From NCBI GenBank assembly GCA_903813345.2, contig CAIIXF020000005.1, positions 36,151,375-36,215,374 on the forward strand: DNA of 64,000 bases, read 5' to 3'. The stretch is from Owenia fusiformis. Taxonomy: Eukaryota; Annelida; Polychaeta; Sabellida; Oweniidae. The first letter of the stretch is position 1; each line of letters begins with the position of its first letter. A program made the translations under genes and the position numbers. The notes below the pieces were generated by a model. The model searched no databases, had not been told where the DNA came from, and saw nothing but the letters and a program-made list of their open reading frames with translations. Shown here one piece after another: positions 56,901 to 59,900 of this stretch.

Positions 56901-59900
56901 GTAGATACTATTTGACGGCCATAGTCCATCAAAAGTCATGCTTCGATCCACCACAAATTACAGCACGCTTTGAGTCTATACTCTATAGAGCGCAGTTGGT
57001 AATATATTTTTTACTCCCAAGATGACGTTTCAAGGAAAATAGAGACAGAAATATATTAATACACAACATCTACCATTGATAAATGTTATTTTGTATACTG
57101 ACTGGCACAAATATTATTTTGGTTTGAAAATGTTTTTAAGCAATTAATAATTCAATATCTTGGATGTGTGGCAGTTATGAACTGAAATAATTTAACTGAC
57201 ACAATCCATTAACAACAGGTGGACAATGGACGATATCAATAAAACAAAATAATAAAAACTTGAGCTTGGTTGAGCATGCCATTCCGCATCAAAATCTTTC
57301 AACATTAGGTTTACATGTATTTGCATATACCCTTATGAGCTTAAGATCATATATTGACATTTTTAGGTATTACTATTTCACATTTTGAGATTGGTATCAC
57401 TTGGGCTTTTATTTGAGTTATATCAATTTGAATATGAGCACTTAAAATTACATTTTTTAATAAATCATATTTTGGCACCTTCTGGCATATAATATGATTA
57501 ATGTTGATGCCTAAGTAGCATTGTCTCCCATGATACTGAAACATACCATGAATAATATTTCCTCAAAAATGGATCGGAAAATGACATCTCAGAGGTATAG
57601 CCATTCTTTACTGTTACCGTCAAAACGCAACACAAATATGTCAAATATTAATTCTAAATTGAAAAGAATCAACTGCAAATATGACTGGAATAATTTTTTT
57701 AAATAACATTGTGACAAATAGTGCATGAATTTATACTCACTGCATACGATTTGCATGACATTTGATTAAAAAATCAAGAAAAAATGTTCTCTGAAGTTTT
57801 CTCTTTTAAAGTTTCCTCTGTGATGCCGTATACTTTTTTCAGTATTGACATATGGTGAAGTATTATATTTAATTTATTCCAAATCAATTCTTCATAGGAA
57901 TAAACCTGTTATAATAATTAACTCAACAACTTGAACTAAATGTAAATTCTTTATGGAATTTTGATTATATTCATAATATTTTCCAATATGACAGATTCCT
58001 TATATAAAAACATTTTCATGTCACCAATCTGTAGTGTTTTTATCATCAGCTTTATGTCATTGACAGAATACTAATTATGCATATCAAAAACACCACCCAC
58101 CATATCAAGGTATGGTTGAGGTCTAGGAATAAGACTTATACCTGGACCCATCCCCCTTCTCCCTTCTCCCCCAACATTAGAGCAAGGGGATTTTATTTGA
58201 AAGGGAGTCTATTTTCATATATTATTTAATCATAATCATGCATTTGAAACAATCTAAGTGAATCTGAATAGCACATGGTTTAATTATCTTATATGAAAAT
58301 GATATATGTTATAAAACAGCTCAAAATGCAGCCCTAAAGTTCATAGTTGAAATCTATTTATTGTTGTATAAAGGTATTCTAATAAAAAGTATGTACCTAA
58401 TATAAAAATATAATTAAGCGCTGACATGCAGTTGACCTTTGACCTAGGGTATAAAGTGACCTTCAAAGGTCAAGGAAGGGTTATTTGCTAAAACACAAGA
58501 CAAAACAAACAAACAAAGCAGGATATATACACATTGAGCATCAATAATGATCATATTAATTTCTGTCTTATTGGCAAATTAAAATCTTTTTCATCTATGA
58601 TGAGACAATATAAACAAAAATGCCCAAATGGAATTTTTTTAGATGCTCTATGTGTATATATAGGACTAAATACAAAAGCGTAGTAGCGCGTAAAATGTCA
58701 AAGAGGCGTAGTGATATCTTACAATACCAACCGCCCTCTGTCGGGTCCAATCTCCGAGCCCTGCGACCATGTTTGGAGTTGTTATGCACAAACATGTTGT
58801 CGGAGACTGACAAAAGAGGGCCTTCTACTGACACTTGAGACGCCACTGCCACCTACAAGCACACGAGAGTACTAACTAAATTTCTAGTAATGAGAAGTTA
58901 TGCTCACTTTTTACATCGAGATCACGACCCAGTTTTCGCCCATGTTTGGAATTGTTGTGGATAAACATGTTTTCTGAGCATGCCAACAGGAATCCGTTGT
59001 CAACGGCAACCTGAGTACTAAGAACCACCTAAATAAAGAAAATATTTTGATAAATTTTGTTTTTAAGGATTTTGCTCAAAATACTAGAAATACATGAAAA
59101 GGTGGTGTTCTGTAAAATATGTGGGTAATACATAAATCTTATAATGTCCAAACATCTCTCTTGTTAAAGGAGGATGTCTTAAAGCCTGTTTATGCATGGT
59201 GATTGAAAAAAGTATTTAATTTGTCAAAAACCAACTTTATGTAATCGAGGGAAATATTTGAATTTCAAACATAAGCAGTCTTTTACAGGATTGCCTTTCA
59301 AAATAGAATTGCGTTATACATAAAACTACATTCACTCATTACTCTCATTGTTTTCAAGGTTTCAACAGTTTTCAAGAAGTGTTCATGATTAAAGGCATCC
59401 AAAACTAGACCTGTCATCTTCAGAATGTGTAACCAAAATTCATATTTTTTCTTATTTCGCAAGATTTTGCCTGAACACTAGCACGGAATTGTTGCAACAT
59501 TTGGCGTGAGCAAATCAGCCGGGTGACAAATTTAATTCTAAGGGGTTCTAATCTTTCTGTTCCAGACTTGTAATTCAATACATAAACTTGACAGTGCTTC
59601 AAAAGCAATGGGAGTTTATTACTCAATTTGATTATGGAAACTTTGAAACTTGATCTTAAAGAATCAATGAATTGATGAGTTGAACCAAGTGCTTATAATT
59701 ACATTGATACCAACCATTGAAATTACCACAAATAAATTGGACCTAATTATCCAATATATATCATTTATAACAATAAATTAATGACTTTTGGATCAAAAAC
59801 AGGATTTGCGTAATAGCTCATTTAAAATATTCGTCACAAACAAATGAATGGTATTCAATGACCCATAGCCCTCTTCATTGCGACATAAGTCATTCATAAA

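Follow-up and report, generated by a model that had tools for sequence, protein, structure and literature searches.

The window analysed here, a stretch of 64,000 nucleotides on contig C5 (CAIIXF020000005.1) of Owenia fusiformis, carries the 3′ part of a COE/EBF (collier) gene on its minus strand, while the 5′ part of this gene is located past the window's right end. Exons were placed using the human EBF1 protein as a guide, with the adjoining stretches of C5 included (130,626 joined bases), and counterparts of EBF1 exons 1 to 11 and of the helix-2 exon were identified, each flanked by ag and gt apart from the first exon, for which just a donor was placed. In the window, on the minus strand, exon 7 (60753..60834; 82 nt, ag/gt, phase 2 to 0) was found once and ends in ...NPRDMRRFQ, while exon 9 (55155..55285), likewise found once, encodes the start of the IPT domain. 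It is followed by exon 10 (54690..54816; IPT domain), exon 11 (52306..52394; end of the IPT and start of the HLH domain) and the helix-2 (HLH) exon (48920..49088), also found once; a vertebrate-type second copy of the latter was not found in the 130,626 bases searched with EBF1. Intron 6-7 (C5:36212209-36254088) was shown to span 41,880 nt, against a maximum of 6,687 nt among the other introns measured, and a search with human EBF1 found no further COE exon copy inside it.

The spliced exons 1 to 11 can be translated without interruption into proteins of 369 or 372 residues, which match the COE DBD, IPT (PF01833, 56 bits) and HLH (PF16423, 67 bits) models, the HLH match being partial (first 29 of 44 positions), as the joined proteins end at exon 11. 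A search of the whole genome (498,259,871 bases, 525 contigs) with the COE DBD model placed all eight listed matches (E ≤0.001) within C5:36210122-36264265. One COE locus was found in the genome, a missing match being no proof of absence, and a second COE gene was listed neither by this search nor by one with the peptide of exon E8a (see below). COE is described as a single gene per genome outside vertebrates in the available text of PMC2394523.

Convergent with the COE gene, two open frames on the plus strand (window positions 32955-37369) represent parts of an LDB/Chip-like (LIM-domain-binding) gene, with a LID match of 44.5 bits (cut-off 25) and a LIM_bind match of 22.5 bits that falls short of the cut-off (24.2). 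At positions 35579-36077 of the window, either strand offers two open frames, and the translations are repetitive.

Tandem copies of exons 5 and 8

Exons 5 and 8 were the only ones to be detected in two copies among the EBF1-matched exons of the 130,626 bases. Apart from these, EBF1 matched repeatedly only with its C-terminal Ser-rich part, in three weak hits (E 0.11 to 8.3) located on the opposite strand.

The exon 8 pair consists of E8a (58908..59028, minus strand; 121 nt, encoding 40 residues plus 1 nt) and E8b (58723..58852, minus strand; 130 nt, encoding 43 residues plus 1 nt), both of which are open, have ag/gt ends and run from phase 0 to phase 1. A reading made from the letters of this stretch (the sequence-only reading) had described them as tandem exons with intact splice sites, a phase 0 start and a phase 1 end, and these properties were reproduced on the spliced minus strand, with the junctions confirmed to the base (exon 7 at 60753, gt; E8a at 59028-58908; E8b at 58852-58723; exon 9 at 55285, ag). 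Exon 9 is in frame after either copy. Another candidate E8a donor, at 58915 (gat followed by gtaaaa), was set aside, as it would end the exon in phase 0, which does not fit exon 9. The two exons are separated on the minus strand by an intron of 55 nt (58853..58907) with a single yUnAy match, the A of which lies 17 nt from the donor.

At the protein level, 20 of 39 aligned residues are identical between E8a and E8b, not counting an Asn inserted in E8a and four residues at the end of E8b, and the HNNSKHGR stretch is identical in both; at the DNA level, their similarity takes the form of a 53-nt direct repeat (79%). A chance likeness between the two was ruled out, as the whole-genome search with the E8a peptide (E ≤0.001) listed just two matches, E8a itself (1.3e-20) and E8b (1.3e-5). 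Another potential donor of E8b, gttggt, which looks weak by eye, is located at 58732/58731, 9 nt upstream of the main one; its use would keep the frame and give ...LDPTEG-ATPCIKA, nearer to the EBF1 linker, comparable to the two donors of vertebrate exon 8.

The second pair lies beyond the window and thus out of reach of the sequence-only reading. It belongs to the same gene, has the same orientation and is located 44.8 kb upstream of E8a. E5a (C5:36255609-36255536) and E5b (C5:36255286-36255213), on the same strand as the rest of the gene, each comprise 74 nt with ag/gt ends, run from phase 0 to phase 2 and encode 24 residues, of which 18 are identical; they are separated by an intron of 249 nt. 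Differences between them fall at EBF1 positions 139, 140, 145, 149, 151 and 153 (the numbering follows the full-length EBF1 sequence, with residues 47-251 checked against the 3mlp text). Both exons retain His157 and Cys161, which we take to be ligands of the COE zinc knuckle, and the H-C-C-C arrangement of this knuckle is present, with THEIMC in E5a as well as E5b and SRCCDKKSC across the junction of exons 5 and 6. Furthermore, Y141 and R152, given as positions altered in human EBF3 patients in the consulted text of PMC10020332, are retained in both.

Predicted effects on the COE protein

To the PF16422 model (cut-off 27 bits), the four combinations of one E5 and one E8 copy scored 438.0, 449.8, 441.1 and 452.8 bits, and the form with E5b and E8a aligned with EBF1 in the 3mlp structure over 322 residues (E 7.7e-196). 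Compared with EBF1 and E8b, which have R, A, R, L, D and P at these positions, E8a has K243, L244, G245, D247, L248 and D249. The basic stretch that follows HGR had been read as altered in E8a, a statement that holds for the changes after HGR as such and needs tempering for the G-R-R triplet itself, where the change is mild (G-R-K). The larger changes lie just past it (A244 to L, R245 to G, L247 to D and P249 to D). In EBF1-DNA structures, the G-R-R stretch is reportedly positioned at the minor groove. The net charge (Lys/Arg versus Asp/Glu) does not differ within the E5 pair or within the E8 pair; therefore, a simple loss of basic charge is not favoured.

These differences may result in tuned binding, in a changed coupling between the DBD and the IPT domain, or in a dominant-negative E8a form. 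Judged from its residues, E8a, being altered beside HNNSKHGR, could be a weak or non-binding form, and the strongest of the competing explanations, which we nevertheless consider unlikely, is that E8a and/or one of the E5 exons yields a DNA-binding-defective COE protein that acts as a dominant negative in dimers. The replacement of R243-A-R245 by K-L-G and the altered tail towards the IPT domain would be in line with such a function, but HNNSKHGR and the presumed zinc ligands are kept, as are both E5 positions altered in EBF3 patients, and the PF16422 scores are good for each of the four isoforms. A precedent is provided by human EBF3, where the DBD substitutions Arg163Leu and Pro177Leu are said to reduce the activity of wild-type EBF3 in a dominant-negative manner (PMC8339956, as far as its text was available).

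Reading frame and probable mutual exclusivity

According to the accessible part of PMC2394523, all COE DBD exons except exon 6 are asymmetric, and this pattern was also observed at the present locus, where exon 6 measures 69 nt, while the lengths of exons 2 to 5 (E5a and E5b alike), 7, E8a and E8b are not multiples of three (E8a and E8b both leave a remainder of one). As described above, the two members of each pair are homologous, lie next to each other at the corresponding place in the gene and agree in phase. When both members or neither member of a pair were spliced in silico, the reading frame was shifted and a stop was encountered in the extra or the next exon in all four such forms. Since any other number breaks the reading frame, a productive mRNA would contain exactly one E5 and one E8 exon. 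The sequence-only reading had proposed that the exon 8 copies are probably mutually exclusive; the frame breakage and the 55-nt intron between them argue for such exclusivity more strongly than it had done.

As to how exclusivity might be achieved, we infer that mRNAs with both exons or neither would be destroyed, and a steric block to splicing across the 55-nt intron of the exon 8 pair is plausible. A single RNA fold across this intron gave a value of -22.5, to be read without a control. Among 12 splicing-factor motifs tried near the pairs, TTTGTTT occurred four times at the exon 8 pair versus 0.3 expected, with three of these occurrences in one TTTG run, and GCATG showed a weak excess near the exon 5 pair, with three occurrences versus 1.0 expected; both are raw counts, uncorrected for the number of motifs. 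The remaining motifs were within about one count of expectation or lower near both pairs.

The same frame logic could also operate as a poison switch, in which less COE protein is made because taking both copies, or none, puts the mRNA out of frame, the protein difference between the copies mattering little. The stops encountered in the extra or next exon are as such a switch would have them, but a poison exon has no need of a COE-like protein sequence, yet this has been kept at both copies of both pairs, and we regard the explanation as improbable.

Divergence and conservation of the paired exons

Comparison of the paired exons by codon position showed that 17 of the differences within the E5 pair fall at third positions, versus seven at first and three at second positions (Fisher p 0.00005), and the differences over the whole of exon 8 (39 codons) are distributed as 16, 10 and 25 (Fisher p 0.0015). 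In the 14-codon core of exon 8, the corresponding numbers are 1, 0 and 7 (Fisher p 0.0008), which bears out the earlier statement that the shared core differs mainly at silent third bases. Consistent with these counts, pS and pN were 0.75 and 0.34 for the E8 pair, 0.72 and 0.07 for the E8 core, and 1.03 and 0.23 for the E5 pair.

Neutral divergence was simulated for six times, each represented by 20,000 runs that started from the present E8b or E5b rather than from an ancestor, and a run was counted as passing if the frame, AG/GT and the observed identity were kept. At 0.25 substitutions per site, 10.4% of the runs passed for E8 and 1.0% for E5, decreasing to 0.285% and none, respectively, at 0.5 substitutions per site, while at 0.75 or more substitutions per site, 0 of 20,000 runs passed at each of four times for both pairs. 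With silent sites saturated, the protein kept and neutral copies failing, this comparison within a single genome supports the earlier suggestion that both E8 exons are under selection, and it points the same way for the E5 pair.

Compared with EBF1, E8a and E8b carry the same residue as the human protein at 23 and 29 of 39 positions, respectively. The EBF1 residue is present in E8a alone at five positions and in E8b alone at 11, with a shared change at two, three different residues at three and the same residue in all at 18. For exon 5, the EBF1 residue is found in E5a alone at two positions and in E5b alone at three, with all three different at one and identical at 18. Neither copy can thus be regarded simply as 'the canonical exon', because each retains EBF1 residues that the other has lost. 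The designation of E8b as the canonical form is appropriate for the last 22 residues, where E8b matches EBF1 at 21 and E8a at 12, and fails for the first 17, where E8a matches at 11 and E8b at eight; by this alignment, neither E8 exon is wholly canonical. In a scan of a contig collection for the COE genes of relatives, in which an E7-E8b peptide pattern was used, none of the 201 pattern matches was confirmed.

These observations also bear on the possibility that each pair includes a dead relic, an exon that is spliced in rarely or not at all. The greater distance of E8a from EBF1 would suit a relic, but both copies are open, with AG/GT ends and matching phases, silent change is saturated while the protein is kept, neutral simulation fails to reproduce this, and each copy keeps EBF1 residues lost from the other, which together render this explanation very unlikely, although very rare use of one member of a pair is conceivable. 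Finally, an assembly artefact, in which two alleles or a misjoined duplicate came to stand side by side, would fit the tandem layout but can be dismissed, as the silent sites are saturated and the 50-base flanks of the copies are unlike (20-42% ungapped identity), therefore not indicative of a recent duplication or such an artefact, and as two independent pairs occur 44.8 kb apart in 130,626 joined bases without a single N.

Two probable pairs of exclusive exons and their relation to known systems

The most probable interpretation, to which we assign a probability of roughly 85%, is that exons 5 and 8 represent two ancient pairs of mutually exclusive exons, from which up to four COE DBD isoforms are produced by one gene. 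According to this interpretation, exon 5, which extends into the zinc knuckle, and exon 8, which carries the HNNSKHGR stretch at the end of the domain together with the tail towards the IPT domain, would each have been duplicated in tandem long ago, with both copies of each being retained by selection. Productive mRNAs would include one E5 and one E8 exon, the 55-nt intron of the latter pair perhaps being too short for splicing. Both members of each pair would presumably be expressed, with the choice between them controlled by cell type, and DNA binding would probably be tuned rather than lost, through target choice, affinity or DBD-IPT coupling.

Within the same family, the closest parallel is the tandem duplication of the helix-2 exon (exon 13) in vertebrate EBF genes (Daburon et al. 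2008, PMC2394523). In the model given in the portion of that paper at hand, the duplicated asymmetric exon 13 allows one copy or the other to be used, never both. Both cases thus involve a tandem duplicate of an asymmetric exon, a state that in this model at first enforces single-copy use; however, the vertebrate exon belongs to the HLH domain and later acquired a new donor admitting both copies, whereas the exons described here belong to the DBD and are still asymmetric. Vertebrate EBF exon 8 is itself alternatively spliced, its two donors (8 to 10 residues; PMC2394523, same portion) altering the length of the linker between DBD and IPT domain, whereas at the Owenia locus the whole exon is exchanged.

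Outside the COE family, exons 18 and 18b of FOXP1 are mutually exclusive within the DNA-binding domain and reported to change the preferred motif, as summarized in the consulted section of a review (PMC11701043); in that case a single pair affects a forkhead domain, whereas here two pairs, predicted from sequence, lie in the COE domain. The mutually exclusive exon 2 of shrimp MEF2 (PMC10051702, text available in part) likewise belongs to an invertebrate transcription factor, although one of a different family. Dscam1, as portrayed in the accessible text of PMC9013439, resembles the present gene in that several clusters of exclusive exons multiply the isoforms of one gene, but encodes a cell-adhesion molecule with large arrays, in contrast to two pairs in one transcription-factor domain. 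Elsewhere in the Owenia genome, twelve listed tandem matches to one segment of a myosin motor domain (..TYSGLFCVVINPYKRLPIY..) were observed at C9:37986009-37994334 (L027), with further motor matches lying downstream on this strand, and this array is a candidate for a large array of alternative exons.

The sequence-only reading knew of no description of such a switch in COE genes, in agreement with our literature search and with the part of PMC2394523 available. Judged mostly from titles and the first lines of abstracts, no paper in the literature searched dealt with mutually exclusive exons in a COE DBD, and automatic genome annotation may already hold such isoforms. A text search of the Platynereis coe paper (PMC3117877) returned no mention of splicing or isoforms.

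COE proteins help specify neurons, and their DNA-binding domain is highly conserved. As no COE paralogue was found, it is conceivable, albeit speculative, that the two switches provide four DBDs with differing targets in different neurons or mesoderm cells, and in this manner do the job of the four EBF paralogues of vertebrates. If the existence of two exclusive exon pairs is correct, a single COE regulator would be re-tunable by splicing through two selected switches in its DBD, and it would become testable whether neuron identity depends on the COE variant that is spliced. The four natural variants would then amount to a ready-made dissection of the COE domain, since one pair concerns its zinc-knuckle side and the other its end.
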